Positions 26,797 through 33,145 of a stretch of DNA of 33,543 bases are shown piece after piece. Positions within the stretch are counted from its first letter, which is position 1. Each line of letters starts with the position of its first letter. This DNA is from Candidatus Agathobaculum merdipullorum. Its GTDB lineage: Bacteria; Bacillota; Clostridia; Oscillospirales; Butyricicoccaceae. Location of the stretch: the NCBI GenBank assembly GCA_019115185.1, contig DXDZ01000004.1, positions 1-33,543 on the forward strand. The letters are read 5' to 3'. The position numbers and the translations under genes are program-made. The notes under the pieces were generated by a model that saw nothing but the letters and a program-made list of their open reading frames with translations, ran no database searches and was not told where the DNA came from.

Positions 26797-27252
26797 ATGA
26801 AATGTCCGTTTTGCGGGTTTGATGACAGCAAGGTAGTCGATTCCCGACCGACTGATGAGGGAACGAGTATCCGCCGCCGCAGAGAATGTCTCAAATGTCT
26901 CAAGCGTTTTACCACTTATGAAACCGTGGAGCGGATGCCGCTGATGCTGGTCAAGCGCGATGGCACGCGGCAAGCCTACGACCGGCAGAAGCTGCTGGGC
27001 GGTTTGATGAAAGCGTGTGAAAAACGACCGGTGTCGCTCATTCAGCTCGAGCAAATCGTCGATAACGTCGAGCAACGGGTGTTCGGCTCGCTGGAAACCG
27101 AAGTGTCCAGTAAAGTAATTGGGGAACTGGTAATGGAGCAGCTGCGCAAGGTCGATGAGGTAGCCTATGTGCGCTTTGCTTCGGTTTACCGCCAGTTTAA
27201 AGATATCAATACCTTTATGGAGGAACTCAATACCCTGCTGAAGGATAAGTGA
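26797..27252 (+). CDS. nrdR: Transcriptional repressor NrdR
   Basis: A 151-residue NrdR, the ATP/dATP-sensing repressor of ribonucleotide reductase genes. The N-terminal zinc ribbon uses C3, C6, C31 and C34 ([17 protein letters not shown], then [13 protein letters not shown]) and contacts DNA. An ATP-cone follows (about 49-139; [15 protein letters not shown]). Length and motifs are normal and the gene looks intact. It is the last host gene before the mobile region, and points toward it; its 3' end is the candidate attachment site of the Tn7-like element. Confidence 0.96.
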
Positions 27253-27261
27253 TTTTTGATA

Positions 27262-27289
27262 CCCCCTCACCCCAAATCGCCCAATCCCC
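27262..27289 (-). other. Predicted G-quadruplex motif downstream of nrdR
   Basis: On the minus strand four G-runs of 4, 3, 4 and 5 bases are separated by loops of 3, 6 and 3 bases (C-runs at 27262-27266, 27270-27273, 27280-27282 and 27286-27289 on plus). This fits the canonical G3+N1-7 rule. It starts 10 bases after the nrdR stop, on the template strand of nrdR transcription. Confidence 0.6.
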
Positions 27290-27317
27290 TCACATAAAAT
27301 CGACAGAATAACGTCAC

Positions 27318-27357
27318 AGAGATCTAAAGCATAAAAGTGCTTTGGGTCTCTTTTTTT
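27318..27357 (+). terminator. Rho-independent terminator of nrdR
   Basis: A 14-base stem, AGAGATCTAAAGCA (27318-27331) with TGCTTTGGGTCTCT (27338-27351), including two G-T pairs, a 6-base loop and seven T's. It lies 65 bases past the nrdR stop and probably belongs to the host chromosome. Confidence 0.88.
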
Positions 27358-27374
27358 ATCTCAAAATAGAGGGC

Positions 27375-27398
27375 TTGAGCCGGATTTTGAGCCGGAAT
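27375..27398 (+). repeat. 12-base tandem repeat
   Basis: TTGAGCCGGATT followed directly by TTGAGCCGGAAT, two units with one mismatch in 12. Located between the nrdR terminator and the candidate transposon end; function unknown. Confidence 0.7.
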
Positions 27399-27512
27399 GC
27401 GGGTATATGCAGAGCCTGATACCGAGGAAAGCAAGCTTGGTTTTAGCCTGTTTTGCGTGAGAAAATGGGCGAAAATTTGGGGAGGGGATAACACAGAGGC
27501 TAAAAATAAATA

Positions 27513-27531
27513 CAATTATTCCGAGTTTTTG
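27513..27531 (+). repeat. 19-base direct repeat, copy 1
   Basis: CAATTATTCCGAG followed by TT and TTTG. It matches copy 2 at 27667-27685 in 17 of 19 positions, in the same orientation, 154 bases away. Spaced, same-orientation repeats are typical of TnsB-binding sites at Tn7-like ends, but this copy lies on the outer side of the best TGT terminus, so its role is uncertain. Confidence 0.6.
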
Positions 27532-27544
27532 TCATAAAATGCGC

Positions 27545-27561
27545 TTCGTCAAAACGACGAA
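27545..27561 (+). repeat. Inverted repeat just inside the candidate transposon end
   Basis: TTCGTC (27545-27550) and GACGAA (27556-27561) with an AAAAC centre, 15 bases inside the TGT at 27530. It may be part of the terminal TnsB site. Confidence 0.45.
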
Positions 27562-27666
27562 ATTTTTCTTCGGCTCATGAAAACACTCTGAAAATCCGGT
27601 GGAATGGGTGAAACCTCAATAATCTGCAACAAATTCAAGCACAGATAGTTACTTGGATATTTGGGG

Positions 27667-27685
27667 CAATTATTCCGAGAATTTG
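27667..27685 (+). repeat. 19-base direct repeat, copy 2
   Basis: CAATTATTCCGAG, then AA and TTTG. It would fall inside tnsA if that gene began at the TTG 27661, but upstream of it with the preferred TTG at 27754; this favours the later start. Confidence 0.6.
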
Positions 27686-27753
27686 ATTACAAAGTACAAA
27701 ATCTTCGATTAATTCACCGCAGCACACAGTTAATTGATGGGAGGCTGAAACGA

Positions 27754-28158
27754 TTGAGGAAATTTGGTGTTAAATCAAGAGACATCTCTTTTTACAGCAA
27801 AAAGAACCAAGACATCATCCGTGTCCATTGCCGTTCAGCACGAAAATATGCCGAAAAGTTGGAAACAGATTTGTCAGTGAAGACATATCTGGTAAACCAT
27901 CGGTTAGACAGTGCTTTCATGTCCCGCATTGACCATGTTGACATTAGAAAAGAGTATTTCACACAAGATTGGAGTACGGATTTTGTTGTGACAATGCAAG
28001 AAGGCAGTGTTTTGGTTTGTGAGTTGACCACCATGAAAGAACTGCAGTCCCGGGCTTCCATTGAAAAACTGGAATTGTCCCGGCGCTATTGGATGCTAAA
28101 AGGCTGTGATTCGTGGAAAATAATCATCGTGCAGGAAGGTGGGGCGGATGTTTGTTGA
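27754..28158 (+). CDS. tnsA: TnsA-like heteromeric transposase endonuclease subunit
   Basis: A 134-residue protein resembling the TnsA N-terminal nuclease domain, which in Tn7 nicks the 5' transposon ends. Recognisable: SARKYAEKLETDLSVKTY (about 28-45), then YFTQDWSTDFVV with the conserved Asp (D75), and CELTTMKEL (89-97) where TnsA normally has Glu-x-Lys. SRRYWMLKGCDSWKIIIV closes the domain, as in the clostridial TnsA-like proteins that I recall. The canonical Lys is Thr here; a Lys lies five residues after the Glu. The C-terminal winged helix of Tn7 TnsA is absent. I prefer the TTG at 27754 (GGGAGG at 27739-27744); TTG 27661 would add 31 residues without a good ribosome site. It overlaps tnsB by 11 bases. 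Confidence 0.78.
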   Translation: MRKFGVKSRDISFYSKKNQDIIRVHCRSARKYAEKLETDLSVKTYLVNHRLDSAFMSRIDHVDIRKEYFTQDWSTDFVVTMQEGSVLVCELTTMKELQSRASIEKLELSRRYWMLKGCDSWKIIIVQEGGADVC

Positions 28159-29938
28159 GTATGGTGCAGCCCGTTACCGGTTGCTGCTGCAATGCGAGGA
28201 AGGCGCTTGGATGATCAACTGTGATCACCCTACTACACCAGTTTTTATTTCATCTATAGAGTTTGATAAGTGCGTCCGTATCGAGGCGCCAGATTTTTTT
28301 ACCTTTGAAACGGATAAAAAACATCAGTTGAGTAAAGCGGTATTAAACCGCATAGAACTCATCCGTCCTTTGCTTCACGATGAACGGTATATTGTGGATA
28401 AGCATCTCAGAAGGGACAAAATCATAGAAATTGCCCAACAGAAGCATACGACAGAAAGACGGATTTTGTCGCTCTATTGCAAGTACTTGGCACGGGGCAG
28501 TTTGCAGCCCATTTCCAAGCCAAAGTCGGTAAGCCGCAATACGCCAAACCGGATATTTGACGCAGCGATTGAAAAGTATTATTTTTCTGCCGCAAGGCAT
28601 TCTCTGAAAAGTGCCTATGATTGTATGCTACTCGAGCATTTTACCGATGCTTCGGGAAAACTGATCGATCATCCGTCATGGAAGAGCTTTGAAAACTACT
28701 ATTACCGGAATGGGTATCACAGGAAAAGTAATCGAGCAATCGCACGGGATGGCCTATCCAACTATCAACGAAACCACAGGCAGCTAGGCGGATCGGCAGT
28801 CATGTGGAAACACCGCATTGGAAGCTATCAGATGGATGCAACACAGGCAGACATCTATTTGGTATCCAGTTTTGACCGTTCGTTAATCATCGGTCGTCCC
28901 TATATTTATTTGGCGGTGGATACAGTGACGGAACTCATTGCAGGTATTTACGTTGGTTTAGAGTCGGGAGAGACGGCGGTGATGGCGTGTCTTTCCAATG
29001 CGGCAGCAGACAAAGTTGCTTACTGTGCCGCATATGGCATTGAGATTGATGCCATGCAGTGGCCATCGAGGGGGGTACCGGCAGAGGTTATTACTGATAA
29101 GGGACGGGAATTTGAAGGGAAGCAGATTGATGCCATTTGCGCACGCTATGGTATGGAACGTGAGAGCCTGCCACCGTTCCGCCCTGATCAGAAAGGGCTG
29201 GTGGAAAAGAGCTTTGATTTATTGCAAAACCGGTACAAGTCTCTGTTGCGGGGCAAAGGCGTGATTGAGCCGGACGCACAGGAACGCTGGTCGGTTGATT
29301 ACCGCAGCCAAGCGGCATTAACACTTGAGATGTATACACAATTAGTGATTCGTATCGTGCTTTATCTAAACGGGAGACCGCTGAAAAATTATCCGGCAAC
29401 CAGTGAAATGCTCAGAGAGCACATTGCGCTAACGCCGATTGGCATTTGGCATTGGTTATGCGGCCGTGGCTGTTCTGCGCTTTTGCAAGTAGATCAGCAA
29501 GAGGTATACTGTATGTCGCTGCCCCGAAAGGAAGCCAAGGTGACAAGGCACGGCATCGTATGTAATGGTTTCACCTATATCAATCCAGACCTCCGACGTT
29601 TGCTGGAGAAGATGTATGGGAAGAAGATGATGGTCGCATACGACTCTCAAAATATCTCCCAAGCTTACCTGATATATGAGAATGCATATATCCCTCTCAT
29701 GCTGGCTCCAGCCTTTTCCTGCTGCAATGGTTTTAACCAAATGGAGGGCCAGCAATATTTACAAGCAAAAAAGTCGGAAGTCAAAAATTTGAATGAGCAG
29801 GATGTTCAGGCACGGGTAGATTTGCTCAAGCAGACGGATGAAATCATCCGGAAAGCGGAATGCCCATACGTACAGCATAAGCAGACTTCCGATGACATTG
29901 CAGCAAACCGGGAAATAGAAAGGCGGAAGTTGACATGA
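28148..29938 (+). CDS. tnsB: TnsB-type DDE transposase
   Basis: A 596-residue transposase of the TnsB/Mu/retroviral-integrase superfamily, which cuts the 3' transposon ends and joins them to target DNA. An N-terminal DNA-binding part (1-215) precedes the RNase H-fold core with the catalytic triad D230 (YQMDATQAD), D317 (VITDKGREFEG) and E353 (RPDQKGLVEKSFD), a DD(35)E spacing. A Mu-type beta-barrel follows (about 430-500). The C-terminal tail (about 535-596) is charged and probably contacts TnsC, as in Tn7. ATG 28148 follows AGGAAGG; a GTG three codons upstream is possible. The last codon overlaps tnsC as ATGA. Confidence 0.95.
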   Translation: MFVEYGAARYRLLLQCEEGAWMINCDHPTTPVFISSIEFDKCVRIEAPDFFTFETDKKHQLSKAVLNRIELIRPLLHDERYIVDKHLRRDKIIEIAQQKHTTERRILSLYCKYLARGSLQPISKPKSVSRNTPNRIFDAAIEKYYFSAARHSLKSAYDCMLLEHFTDASGKLIDHPSWKSFENYYYRNGYHRKSNRAIARDGLSNYQRNHRQLGGSAVMWKHRIGSYQMDATQADIYLVSSFDRSLIIGRPYIYLAVDTVTELIAGIYVGLESGETAVMACLSNAAADKVAYCAAYGIEIDAMQWPSRGVPAEVITDKGREFEGKQIDAICARYGMERESLPPFRPDQKGLVEKSFDLLQNRYKSLLRGKGVIEPDAQERWSVDYRSQAALTLEMYTQLVIRIVLYLNGRPLKNYPATSEMLREHIALTPIGIWHWLCGRGCSALLQVDQQEVYCMSLPRKEAKVTRHGIVCNGFTYINPDLRRLLEKMYGKKMMVAYDSQNISQAYLIYENAYIPLMLAPAFSCCNGFNQMEGQQYLQAKKSEVKNLNEQDVQARVDLLKQTDEIIRKAECPYVQHKQTSDDIAANREIERRKLT

Positions 29939-31242
29939 GTGTAAACCACATGGATAATCCGTTTTTGGAAGCCGTACCAGTACAGATGGACAGGCAAGTT
30001 TTCTTTCAACGCATATATGGCCGCCCTGTTATCCCCAAAGGGGTGTCACAGGCTAATGTACAAGAACGGCAGCAATGGTTATCCCATTTGACGGAATTGT
30101 TTATCCCTATGGAGTATCATTATGTTATTTATGATGTTTTACTCCGTGCAATCCGTACAACGTATACAACAAAAACCATGACAGATTCCATCCGTCAAAT
30201 GCAGGCCGCACGACAAGGGAGCCTATCCGGTTTTGCCACACAGGCACAGAGTGGGGCCCTGTTGGGTGTGCCGGGTATTGGGAAAACTTCTGCAATACGG
30301 CGTTGCCTGTCACTCCTGCCGCAAAGCATTGCACACAGCGAATACAGAGGAAAACCTTTTTACAAAACGCAGATCTTGTACCTTTTTGTCGAATGCCCCG
30401 CAGATTGCTCGATTAAAGCGCTGGCATACAACATCGTTGCAGCAGTTGACCGGGCAATTGGATCAGAGTATTTTTCTATTGCAGTACGCCAAAGCAGGCT
30501 TTCCGCCAGTGCGCTGATTACGCAGGTAAAGATCATCTGCCTCAATCACGGTATCGGTCTGATTGTGGTCGACGAGTTACAGAATGTGATTGCAACTGCC
30601 GAAAAAAATAAACAGGTCAGGCCGCTTGTTCGCTTTCTGGTAGAACTGGTGAACGACACCTGCACCAGCCTATATTTTGTTGGCACTTCTGAAGCAGACC
30701 AACTATTCAGCCAACATGAACATTTAAAACGGCGGACACGGGGACTGCGGCTGCTCCCCCTCAAACCTGATGCAACCTATCGGGCGTTCCTGCAACAGGT
30801 ATGGCAATATCAGTTGCTACCGCAAAAAATGGATTTATCCGATGCGGTGGCCAACCGGATTTATGATTATTCTGGCGGAATCCCTTCTTACATCATTCAG
30901 GTTTTTCAAGAAGCACAGGCACAAGCACTCATACAGGATAAAAATGCTATGGACGAAAAAGATATTCGGCAGGCCGTTGACTTGTTATCCCTTTGTGTGC
31001 CAAAACGGTATATCTCTGGAACCTCCCTTTCGGATTTTTCTATTCCAGTCTTGGATGAGCAGGCTAAAGAAGTACCAAGTGAAGATGCTATCGTGAATCG
31101 ACAGTATGCCACTCCACGGGGGCGCAAAGCCAAAAAGCGCCAATCAAAGGACTTGCTGGTGTTATGGAAACAAGCGGGGCAGATAAATGATTTTTGCAGC
31201 GTCCTAATCGATCGTGGTGTAGCCGAGAGGTTGTTAACATGA
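29935..31242 (+). CDS. tnsC: TnsC-type AAA+ ATPase, transposition regulator
   Basis: A 435-residue AAA+ protein. In Tn7-like systems TnsC polymerises on target DNA, connects the target selector to TnsA/TnsB and mediates target immunity. Walker A is GVPGIGKTS (111-119), Walker B LIVVDE (209-214), sensor 1 is in YFVGTSEAD (247-255), and arginine-finger candidates are R266-R267. The N-terminal ~90 residues could contact TniQ, and the basic C-terminus (PRGRKAKKRQ) could bind DNA or TnsB; both are inference from Tn7. Starts and stops overlap tnsB and tniQ by 4 bases each, implying coupled translation. Confidence 0.94.
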   Translation: MSVNHMDNPFLEAVPVQMDRQVFFQRIYGRPVIPKGVSQANVQERQQWLSHLTELFIPMEYHYVIYDVLLRAIRTTYTTKTMTDSIRQMQAARQGSLSGFATQAQSGALLGVPGIGKTSAIRRCLSLLPQSIAHSEYRGKPFYKTQILYLFVECPADCSIKALAYNIVAAVDRAIGSEYFSIAVRQSRLSASALITQVKIICLNHGIGLIVVDELQNVIATAEKNKQVRPLVRFLVELVNDTCTSLYFVGTSEADQLFSQHEHLKRRTRGLRLLPLKPDATYRAFLQQVWQYQLLPQKMDLSDAVANRIYDYSGGIPSYIIQVFQEAQAQALIQDKNAMDEKDIRQAVDLLSLCVPKRYISGTSLSDFSIPVLDEQAKEVPSEDAIVNRQYATPRGRKAKKRQSKDLLVLWKQAGQINDFCSVLIDRGVAERLLT

Positions 31243-32477
31243 TTGGTTTTTTCCCAACACTATATCCTGATGAACTCTGGTATAGCGCAATTGCACGTTT
31301 TTATATCCATTCAGGTATTGCCTATTGGTCCGATGCGTTGGCGTTATTATTTCCAAATCACACCTCATATCCCAAGGTGGGCGATCTTATGCCAAATGAA
31401 ACAATGCATCAAATTGTAAAGCAGCTTCCATACGATGTGTTGAATTTACGAATGCTCGCCTTGGGACACTCGCTATTTTCTTTTCGAATGCGGTTTATTC
31501 CGCTCAAGCAAAAGAAACGTTATCTGGAGCAATTTTGCGCAGGAGAAAACATACAATCAGCGTTGCTGTCCCTTACCAAAAAGCTGCAAGAACATCCATT
31601 GAGGTATTGTCCACTTTGCGTGCAAGAAGACCGGGATCGGTTTGGAGAAGCATTTTGGCATACGGAGCATCAAATTTGGTTGATGCCGCTTTGCGCAAAA
31701 CACTTGTGCCGTTTGCAGTCAGCGGATCAGAAAAACTCCATGCCGTTGAGTCGACAGTTGGTTCAAATTCCCCTCCGCACATCCAATGTATCGAGTGAAA
31801 CACATGTGTGGGAGCGGGAATTGACTTCCTTGCTGCATCAATGGTATCAGATGCCTTTTGAACAGGAAGCTAACACGCAAACCTTTAATTTGAGTAGGGC
31901 CGTTGAAAACGCTGGGCTGTTGCTATCCGGTAATGTAAACCGAAGGTCATGGGATACAGATGCCTTATATGACCGATTGACAAAGCAGTTTGGGTCCACG
32001 ACGGTGAAAGAAGTATTTGGGGAACGGATTACAGCCGCACACGCCAGACGGCTTAGGAAAATGGAGATCGCAACACCGGAAGAATACGCTTTATTATCTA
32101 TCCTTCTTCATATGAAGCCGGAAGCATTGTTTGAGGATGAACCAATACCGCTTTTCATTTTTGAGAAAATGAAAACCTTATCTACGTCCGGACGGATTCT
32201 GACCAAGGCTGCTATTGCAGAGGAGTTGCAGATTCATCCAGAACAGGTTGGGGCTTATGCAAAACGATTTTCTATACAGCCATTTTGGGTGCAAAGTGGA
32301 TGCTCGAAACCAAAGTCTGAGAGGAAGCATTACACAGTAACCATACATTTATCGAATGAGGAAAAGGCGTTGGTAGATGAATATCTTGCAGATCAAAATA
32401 TACGGGCCTACAGCCATATGCTTCGATATTGTATGCAAAAAGAACTGATCCACTGGCAGAATGAAAAGGGACGCTAA
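31239..32477 (+). CDS. tniQ: TniQ/TnsD family target-selection protein
   Basis: A 412-residue TniQ-domain protein, which recognises the insertion target and recruits TnsC. It begins MIGFFPTLYPDELWYSAIARF, the usual TniQ start (IGFFP...YPDELWYS). The zinc site is C124-x2-C127 ... C152-x2-H155 with WHTEHQ between. Past the TniQ domain, residues ~318-345 look like a helix-turn-helix (LTKAAIAEELQIHPEQVGAY), and residues ~364-403 resemble a ribbon-helix-helix (YTVTIHLSNEEKALVDEYL then MLRYCMQKEL). Both could read DNA. The length is between short TniQ (~350) and Tn7 TnsD (~510). Start is set by the ATGA overlap with tnsC. Confidence 0.93.
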   Translation: MIGFFPTLYPDELWYSAIARFYIHSGIAYWSDALALLFPNHTSYPKVGDLMPNETMHQIVKQLPYDVLNLRMLALGHSLFSFRMRFIPLKQKKRYLEQFCAGENIQSALLSLTKKLQEHPLRYCPLCVQEDRDRFGEAFWHTEHQIWLMPLCAKHLCRLQSADQKNSMPLSRQLVQIPLRTSNVSSETHVWERELTSLLHQWYQMPFEQEANTQTFNLSRAVENAGLLLSGNVNRRSWDTDALYDRLTKQFGSTTVKEVFGERITAAHARRLRKMEIATPEEYALLSILLHMKPEALFEDEPIPLFIFEKMKTLSTSGRILTKAAIAEELQIHPEQVGAYAKRFSIQPFWVQSGCSKPKSERKHYTVTIHLSNEEKALVDEYLADQNIRAYSHMLRYCMQKELIHWQNEKGR

Positions 32478-32509
32478 ATGATGATTGACAAAGGAGAACT
32501 GCTATTGAA

Positions 32510-33145
32510 ATGACAGCTTCCAATGGGTTACAGCCAAAAGGCGTAATACACGGTTATGCAAGGTGTTCCACAAATGAAATGCGTCAAGATATTGACCGGC
32601 AAGTGCGGGAGTTGAAATCGGTTGGAGCGCAGAAAATCTGGCTTGAATATGAACATGGTGATTCTGTTACTAAAGAACAGCAAGCATTGATGTTTGAAAC
32701 TGCAAAAGAGGGCGATACAATATTGGTTTTAGAAGTCCCACGGTTAGCACGCAGCGTTAAGCAACTTTGTGACATTATTGACATCGTTCGTACAAAGAGA
32801 CTTAGATTAGTTATTCAAGGGAGTGTGACGATGGATTGCCGCACAGATTGTCCAGACCCTATGACAGAAGCGTTTTTGCAGATTGCAGGAGTGTTCTCAC
32901 AGCTTGAATTAGCCATGATAAGGGCCAGAGTGAAATCAGGGATGGAGAATGCAAAGGCGAAAGGCAAGAAGATTGGGCGTCCTGCAACAACACTGCACAC
33001 GATACCGGAAAAATTTTTGAAATACTATGCCCTATATAAGGCACAAGAGTTGACAGTAGCAGAGTTGGCCAGACTGGCTTCGGTAAGCCGACAGACTGCA
33101 TATAAATATCTGAGGTTGATTGAGCAGAACAAGCCCAAACAATAA
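32510..33145 (+). CDS. Small serine recombinase (resolvase/invertase family)
   Basis: A 211-residue resolvase. The catalytic domain (about 12-140) has YARCST with nucleophile S20, and PRLARS with R78 and R81. The long E helix contains LELAMIRARVKSGMENAKAKG, followed by IGRPA and a C-terminal helix-turn-helix (about 181-203, LTVAELARLASVSRQTAYKYL). Such enzymes resolve cointegrates or invert segments at paired sites. AAGGAG lies at 32491-32496, 13 bases before the ATG, slightly far. It begins 32 bases after tniQ on the same strand, so it looks like part of the transposition unit. I could not identify its res site. Confidence 0.93.
   Translation: MTASNGLQPKGVIHGYARCSTNEMRQDIDRQVRELKSVGAQKIWLEYEHGDSVTKEQQALMFETAKEGDTILVLEVPRLARSVKQLCDIIDIVRTKRLRLVIQGSVTMDCRTDCPDPMTEAFLQIAGVFSQLELAMIRARVKSGMENAKAKGKKIGRPATTLHTIPEKFLKYYALYKAQELTVAELARLASVSRQTAYKYLRLIEQNKPKQ

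Follow-up and report, generated by a model that had tools for sequence, protein, structure and literature searches.

In this study, we examined a 33,543-nucleotide stretch of DNA from Candidatus Agathobaculum merdipullorum (the window), which is one whole contig of a 1.7-Mb draft genome whose closest named relatives are metagenome-assembled Agathobaculum genomes, and which carries a Tn7-like transposition module inserted at the stop codon of nrdR. On balance, we favor the view that the window covers the left portion of a replicative Tn7-like element whose inserted form is itself a cointegrate, that is, a body with the tns genes lying between two direct copies of a short unit, here called U (U-body-U). 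All window features lie on the plus strand. The attachment gene nrdR (26797..27252; Pfam NrdR zinc ribbon and ATP-cone) is followed by a tnsA-like gene with a TTG start, recognized by family alignment, profile, and structure match (27754..28158; 134 amino acids); by tnsB, which encodes a DDE transposase and has an ATG start (28148..29938; Pfam rve and Mu-transpos_C); by tnsC, encoding an AAA+ ATPase (29935..31242; Pfam TniB/AAA_22); by tniQ, encoding a TnsD-like target selector of the type found next to nrdR (31239..32477; Pfam TniQ); and by the gene for a small serine recombinase of the resolvase/invertase type (32510..33145; 211 amino acids; Pfam Resolvase, E 6.9e-26). From tnsA to tniQ the genes overlap by 11, 4, and 4 bp, and 32 bp separate tniQ from the resolvase gene, so that Pfam and the refined coordinates agree with an earlier sequence-only reading, which had described overlaps of 4 to 11 bases and a same-strand resolvase 32 bases on. 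Its assignment of the module as Tn7-like is borne out by the TniB/AAA and TniQ matches and by the match of the window TnsB to Tn7 TnsB (7pik, E 1.6e-48), with the catalytic D, D, and E all in invariant columns of a four-row alignment. Position 27530, which it had given as the module start, is noncoding DNA; the family alignment sets the TnsA start near 27754.

Insertion at a fixed site, as is characteristic of Tn7-like transposons, is seen in the window, in the sister genome G020, in G019, and in Flavonifractor An10 (F439), in all of which nrdR adjoins tnsA. The window TniQ is 56 to 58% identical to those of the nrdR-adjacent elements in G019 (a fragment) and Flavonifractor An10, and 25 to 43% identical to the remaining TniQs among the matches listed. 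The left copy of the 5-bp target duplication, TGATT (27250..27254), overlaps the nrdR stop codon and is followed by U1 (27257..27493), the left copy of a 237-bp unit (TGATACC...GATAACA). The body then begins at 27494 and runs past the contig end (27494..33543), the junction being placed from G020 and from a further genome, G006. Because the window is an entire contig, the right element end is missing from it; that of the near-twin element lies on a separate contig of G020, with the right TGATT copy. A second end and a 5-base duplication, which the sequence-only reading had proposed to seek, are thus found, the former in relatives and the latter as TGATT on both sides of the G020 element; since relatives show a second end, the objection that no such end exists falls away.

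Direct repeats around the transposition genes

The direct repeats, overlooked by the sequence-only reading, are the actual novelty of this locus. In seven elements (G020, F439, G045, G442C41, G811, G505, and G844), the tns genes lie between long direct repeats of 222 to 425 bp, the two copies of which (U1 and U2) are 88 to 100% identical. In F439, the 236 bp after the nrdR stop recur exactly, in direct orientation, 38.7 kb on, and the outer flanks are TGAGC. The same arrangement is found in G045 (U of 425 bp, U1/U2 identity 100%, outer duplication GCCGA), G844 (405 bp, 99.8% by BLAST, AACGG), G505 (416/417 bp, 90%, ATTCC), and G020 (232 of 238 positions, 97.5%, on two contigs, TGATT). A perfect 5-bp duplication is therefore present at the outer edges in five of the seven elements and at the inner edges in none. 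Body lengths are 6.9, 15.5, 23.5, 38.4, 39.5, and 54.0 kb in six elements, the G020 body being split. Through these relatives, the locus shows the Tn7-like hallmark of a 5-bp duplication outside TG/CA ends with TnsB-like repeats, the window's own right end lying beyond the contig. The single inverted left and right ends of canonical Tn7 are not what the seven relatives have: their repeats are direct and two-ended, a feature that the window alone does not allow one to read.

Each U examined has its own inverted ends, and for this reason we regard U as a mini-transposon. When the first 50 positions are compared with the reverse complement of the last 50, they match in register at 26 to 36 positions in all nine Us, an agreement reached by at most 5 of 20,000 shuffles; for the window U1, the figures are 29 of 50 and 0 of 20,000. 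A weaker first test, based on the best 20-mer, beat shuffles in only five of the nine. The window U1 is identical to G020 U1 at 230 of 238 aligned positions and to G020 U2 at 229 of 237. Its left end carries two TnsB-site-like repeats (27263..27302; direct repeat D2, 82%, 23 bp apart), which TnsB may bind, and its left half contains a terminator-like hairpin with a T run (27318..27357), probably the terminator for nrdR. Such a hairpin was also read in other Us and may replace the terminator of the host gene; Rfam gave no match in the window, L020, or L233. The likeness of U1 and U2 within an element is as if the two were born identical and diverged later.

Us also occur alone. In G006, nrdR is followed by a single U flanked by near-perfect TGATT, with a second U-type unit next and then TGATT, and to the right of U2 in G020 there are stacked U-type units separated by TGATT, one of which resembles a hybrid of two types. 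In G467, a relative of Flavonifractor An10, the site is free of the element, and nrdR directly precedes the gene that, in An10, is the right-hand neighbor of the element. Between the window and G020, the body is 99.1% identical, compared to 89.9% for nrdR and 86.1% for the neighboring gene; the body being more alike than the host genes, the element is young in these hosts and has recently spread horizontally. A decayed copy is found in G055 (L030).

Solo Us and stacks at nrdR are also what one would expect if U were an attachment site, at which a circle of body and U recombined with a resident solo U, through RecA or a recombinase, and TnsB served only to seed solo Us. The resemblance of the G442C41 right U and of one G020 stack unit to left/right hybrids would fit this scheme, as would the difference between window and G020, 8 of 238 positions in U1 against 0.9% in the body. 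However, the scheme sits poorly with the retention of tns genes in the body and with targets that track tniQ, and the identical pairs of F439, G045, and G811 would call for a resident U with exactly the sequence of the U in the circle, so that we consider it quite improbable. The hybrid Us themselves (G442C41 U2 and the unit after U2 on G020 contig C25) seem to switch type near the terminator.

The sequence preceding tnsA recurs in direct orientation in eight of the nine family elements with 25 kb or more of downstream sequence, a limit chosen after the data had been seen, and in none of ten shorter ones; in the ninth long element, G371, less than 0.4 kb of sequence precedes tnsA. The 11 of 19 family elements without a repeat are thus these ten plus G371. 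Among the eight repeat-bearing elements are G026 and G438, neither of them clean, which have related repeats and were left out of the U-body-U count. By comparison, such repeats were absent from all eight non-family Tn7-like elements in which tnsB, tnsC, and tniQ were found and which had over 74 kb downstream.

Several further observations concern the body. An outward σ70-like promoter (TTG..., a 17/18-bp spacer, TATAAT-like) lies 21 to 39 bp before U2 in all seven elements and, in a circle, would read through U toward tnsA; it is suggestive only, since between 2 and 98 of 400 random stretches score equal or better. The body ends, at the inner U edges, form short inverted repeats (11/12 in G020 and G442C41, 9 in G045, and 6 to 8 in the rest), which clearly exceed random pairs in three of the seven elements. 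As cargo, the G442C41 body carries restriction and AbiU2/GmrSD-like genes and the F439 body YcaO/radical-SAM genes. The frame at the window's contig end (33491-33543), too short to test, may be the start of an IS5-type transposase, which it resembles.

The TnsA fold and its active site

The window TnsA keeps the Tn7 fold. Its match to the Pfam TnsA-like N domain (E 2.5e-4, 22 bits) falls under the curated cutoff of 26.5, whereas a profile of 20 family members aligns with Tn7 TnsA (1f1z) across the catalytic domain (E 5.2e-7), and the predicted structure of the window protein (mean predicted local distance difference test score, pLDDT, 80) has 1f1z/1t0f as its sole PDB matches at E <= 0.001. 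We take the active site of Tn7 TnsA to be E63, D114, Q130, and K132. In an alignment of 18 family TnsAs that includes the window and leaves out the frames of G448C32 and G444C72, extracted too short, Lys132 is replaced in all 18 (by V, I, A, T, or S) and Glu63 in 17 (by A in 14 and by Q in 3, with E kept in 1), D114 is retained in all 18, and an acidic residue occupies the Q130 position in 17. The window protein reads A, D, E, and T at the four positions and so departs from the canonical Tn7 set. Ten non-family TnsAs from other Clostridia, found by the Pfam model, all have Lys132; at position 63, seven have E and three Q, and at position 114, four have D and six T/S. The TnsA C-terminal domain had no match in any row of the 20-row family alignment. 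Judged by the ratio of nonsynonymous to synonymous substitution (dN/dS), which is 0.09 to 0.24 in six of nine pairs, 0.61 in one, and saturated in two, in frames taken stop to stop that sometimes include upstream bases, family tnsA is still under purifying selection, while its nuclease looks dead.

The sequence-only reading had seen a paradox in the pairing of TnsA with a resolvase. There is none, because this TnsA has lost the catalytic Lys132 and Glu63. Nor is the combination without precedent: passages of Benler 2021 (PMC8649781) report it in numerous elements and judge that serine resolvases in tnsA-bearing elements lend no support to a replicative role, since tnsA is present. As the present family indicates, the presence of a tnsA gene is no proof of a nuclease. 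One might still suppose that the element is a standard Tn7-like transposon that moves by cut-and-paste, its TnsA being atypical but active, that the resolvase is passenger cargo (e.g., a DNA invertase), as those passages regard such resolvases, and that the repeats are functionless duplications of the ends. Although D114 in 18 of 18 proteins and the acidic residue in 17 of 18 would suit an active enzyme, the losses at positions 132 and 63 and the outer-only duplications in five of seven U-body-U elements speak against it, and this explanation strikes us as very improbable.

Among the control elements, G1203a, G1203b, G1137a, G1084a, and G1084b have complete tns sets and TnsAs in which Asp114 is replaced by T/S and Lys132 is kept; these TnsAs are perhaps another class of inactive TnsA. 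G1137b, from a Clostridia genome, carries a TnsA with E63Q and D114T near the end of a ribosomal-protein-like gene, together with U-like direct repeats in tandem; searches with the window proteins found no tnsB, tnsC, or tniQ nearby. It may represent a second such lineage and, like G1048 (TnsA only), was excluded from the count of eight controls.

An optional resolvase

A serine resolvase gene lies 3′ of tniQ, on the same strand, in eight relatives (G024, F439, G442C41, G443C9, G445C29, G448C32, G441C7, and G447C6), at spacings from a slight overlap up to about 2.5 kb; that of G020 is truncated after about 55 codons at the contig end. A scan of 26 stretches with a serine-recombinase profile, many of them ended early by contig ends, gave no match in those of G045, G811, G505, G438, and G019, among others, and the sole match in G844 falls outside the element. 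The claim of the sequence-only reading that the resolvase belongs to the module, and the conservation of tnsABC-tniQ-resolvase that it wished to see checked, therefore hold in part: the gene keeps its place in the eight relatives, which rules out a separate nested element, but it is no fixed part, being missing from many relatives and from four of the seven U-body-U elements. The nearest match to the window resolvase is the G024 protein (76%), yet the G024 TnsB is only 45% identical; for F439, the values are 57% (resolvase), 51.5% (TnsB), and 57% (TniQ). This departure of resolvase kinship from tns kinship, together with the many relatives without a resolvase, marks it as a swappable accessory, which looks to have been exchanged between elements.

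A 22-bp motif that immediately precedes the F439 resolvase gene is found again in the same place in five of six other elements (six of seven with at most five mismatches, F439 counted as the motif source), and in Oscillibacter (G441C7) it lies within a 30-bp palindrome with a two-base center, as expected of a serine-recombinase crossover site. No such palindrome was found in the window. F439 has a single copy of the motif in the whole element and none in its U, and a resolvase acting at a site in U was rejected on this ground. Also set aside as resolvase sites were the two CAATTATTCCGAG copies (at 27513 and 27667; 27513..27685, direct repeat D1, 89%) between U1 and tnsA of the window, similar motifs occurring in elements without a resolvase as well; they may be iterons, operators, or recombination sites. 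CAATTATTCCGAG-like motifs were read in F439, G438, G811, and G505, G438 having a longer array in both orientations compared to the two copies of the window.

The position of this crossover-like palindrome would suit a composite element, in which U-body-U moved as a unit from its outermost ends by replication, the resolvase split the fused donor and target at a site within the body, in the manner of Tn5053, and the Us were kept alike by gene conversion. Such an element would account for the outer duplications equally well, but not for each end being a complete two-ended U or for the 100% identity of U1 and U2 in three unrelated elements, and it would need a resolvase where four of the seven elements have none and a palindrome that the window does not show; we judge it unlikely. 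Most likely, the resolvase is an accessory that would act on two-body molecules at a site beside its own gene.

A proposed standing cointegrate

Under the reading that we favor, the transposon proper would be U, which would have one TnsB-type end on the left, another on the right, and hardly anything but the terminator between them, and the tns genes and cargo would lie outside it, in the body. The donor would be a circular molecule of body and U with one U; TnsB, aided by TnsC, the nuclease-dead TnsA, and TniQ, would join both U ends to the target, with TniQ recognizing the 3′ end of nrdR or, in relatives, that of another gene. As the 5′ strands would stay uncut, replication would yield U-body-U with the 5-bp duplication outside, and recombination between the two Us would later free the circle and leave a solo U. 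Loss of the TnsA nuclease fits this lifestyle because an active TnsA would move U alone, stranding the genes. The resolvase would separate two-body molecules, which could be dimers of the circle, bodies in tandem, or fusions of donor and target that arose through use of the outermost ends.

Several points weigh against this reading. G811 (U of 269 bp, U1/U2 identity 100%) is without an outer duplication; that of G442C41 (U of 223/222 bp, 88%) is only 4 bp long, ATTG, and its right U is a left/right hybrid. In G020 and G844, one or a few bases decided the U boundary, which was chosen with knowledge of the duplication. The second U of G026 is incomplete and comes with the end of the neighboring gene, and G438 has a copy in tandem whose left side is masked. 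The loss of TnsA residues is read from sequence, so that a shifted active site is conceivable, and the TnsA of G442C22 retains Glu63. Five of the eight control elements, those with Asp114 replaced by T/S, show no repeats, so that a damaged TnsA is insufficient for U-body-U. The bodies of G045, G811, G505, and G844 lack the resolvase, and the crossover-like site, where found, adjoins the resolvase gene and is not in U; for both reasons, the resolvase is unlikely to separate U from U. Finally, no circular form was found, plasmid and phage matches all being under 60% identity and viral contigs giving none. Neither a relaxase nor a replication protein, which would mark the body as a plasmid or conjugative element, is among the Pfam families listed (the best 25 of 32, 25 of 53, 16 of 16, and 25 of 26), tyrosine recombinases not having been searched for; because these are only the best of each set, the body may yet be of that kind.

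The closest known systems share features with this arrangement. Like Tn7 (TnsABC+TnsD), the element has a TnsA fold, TnsB, TnsC, and a TniQ/TnsD-type selector and inserts at the 3′ end of a host gene with TG-type ends and a 5-bp duplication. Unlike Tn7, which has one copy per end, inverted, no resolvase, and a TnsA that is active and includes a C-terminal domain, it has two-ended direct repeats around the body and a TnsA without Lys132 and Glu63. With Tn5053/Tn402 (TniABQR), it shares a serine resolvase and probably a replicative mode, but here a TnsA-like protein is kept, the resolvase is optional, the target is a host gene instead of res sites, and the inserted form is U-body-U. IS26 pseudo-compound elements (translocatable units) likewise have direct copies of a small transposon around a passenger and form a circle with one copy, but IS26 encodes its own transposase, whereas U carries none. 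A further likeness is to CRISPR-associated Tn7-like systems with TnsA D90A (Vibrio cholerae) or without TnsA (ShCAST), for which portions of one report (PMC8188705) describe cointegrates with two mini-transposons around the donor backbone; with a TnsA active-site mutant, more than 95% of the products seen by long reads were of this kind, a duplicated mini-transposon around the inserted donor backbone. U-body-U, where U takes the place of the mini-transposon and the backbone holds the tns genes, has the shape of these TnsA-mutant products. There, the cointegrate is a laboratory product or by-product; here, it is a standing natural form. In a literature search that mostly did not reach subscription journals, we found no description of U-body-U or of nrdR as a Tn7-like site, nor any of a Tn7-like element with direct repeats and a circular intermediate or of TnsB with long direct repeats.

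The evidence is about evenly poised on the broader proposition that a Tn7-like lineage of gut Clostridia lives as a standing cointegrate, in which the machinery moves a U that lacks it and travels only by virtue of a dead TnsA nuclease, the whole circle being carried each time, and in which the Us, much as retrotransposon long repeats do, start out identical, record the age of the insertion, and remain as solo scars. If true, nature would have built a lifestyle on the very TnsA-mutant products that are seen as unwelcome in genome-engineering systems, and the role of a retained but nuclease-dead TnsA would be explained. The family corrects the inference that a tnsA homologue implies cut-and-paste transposition, and boundary finders that expect one inverted end per side may misread U-body-U elements. 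Such elements would be natural, cointegrate-only, site-specific integrators of large DNA, and the divergence of U1 from U2 would offer a means to date their insertions.

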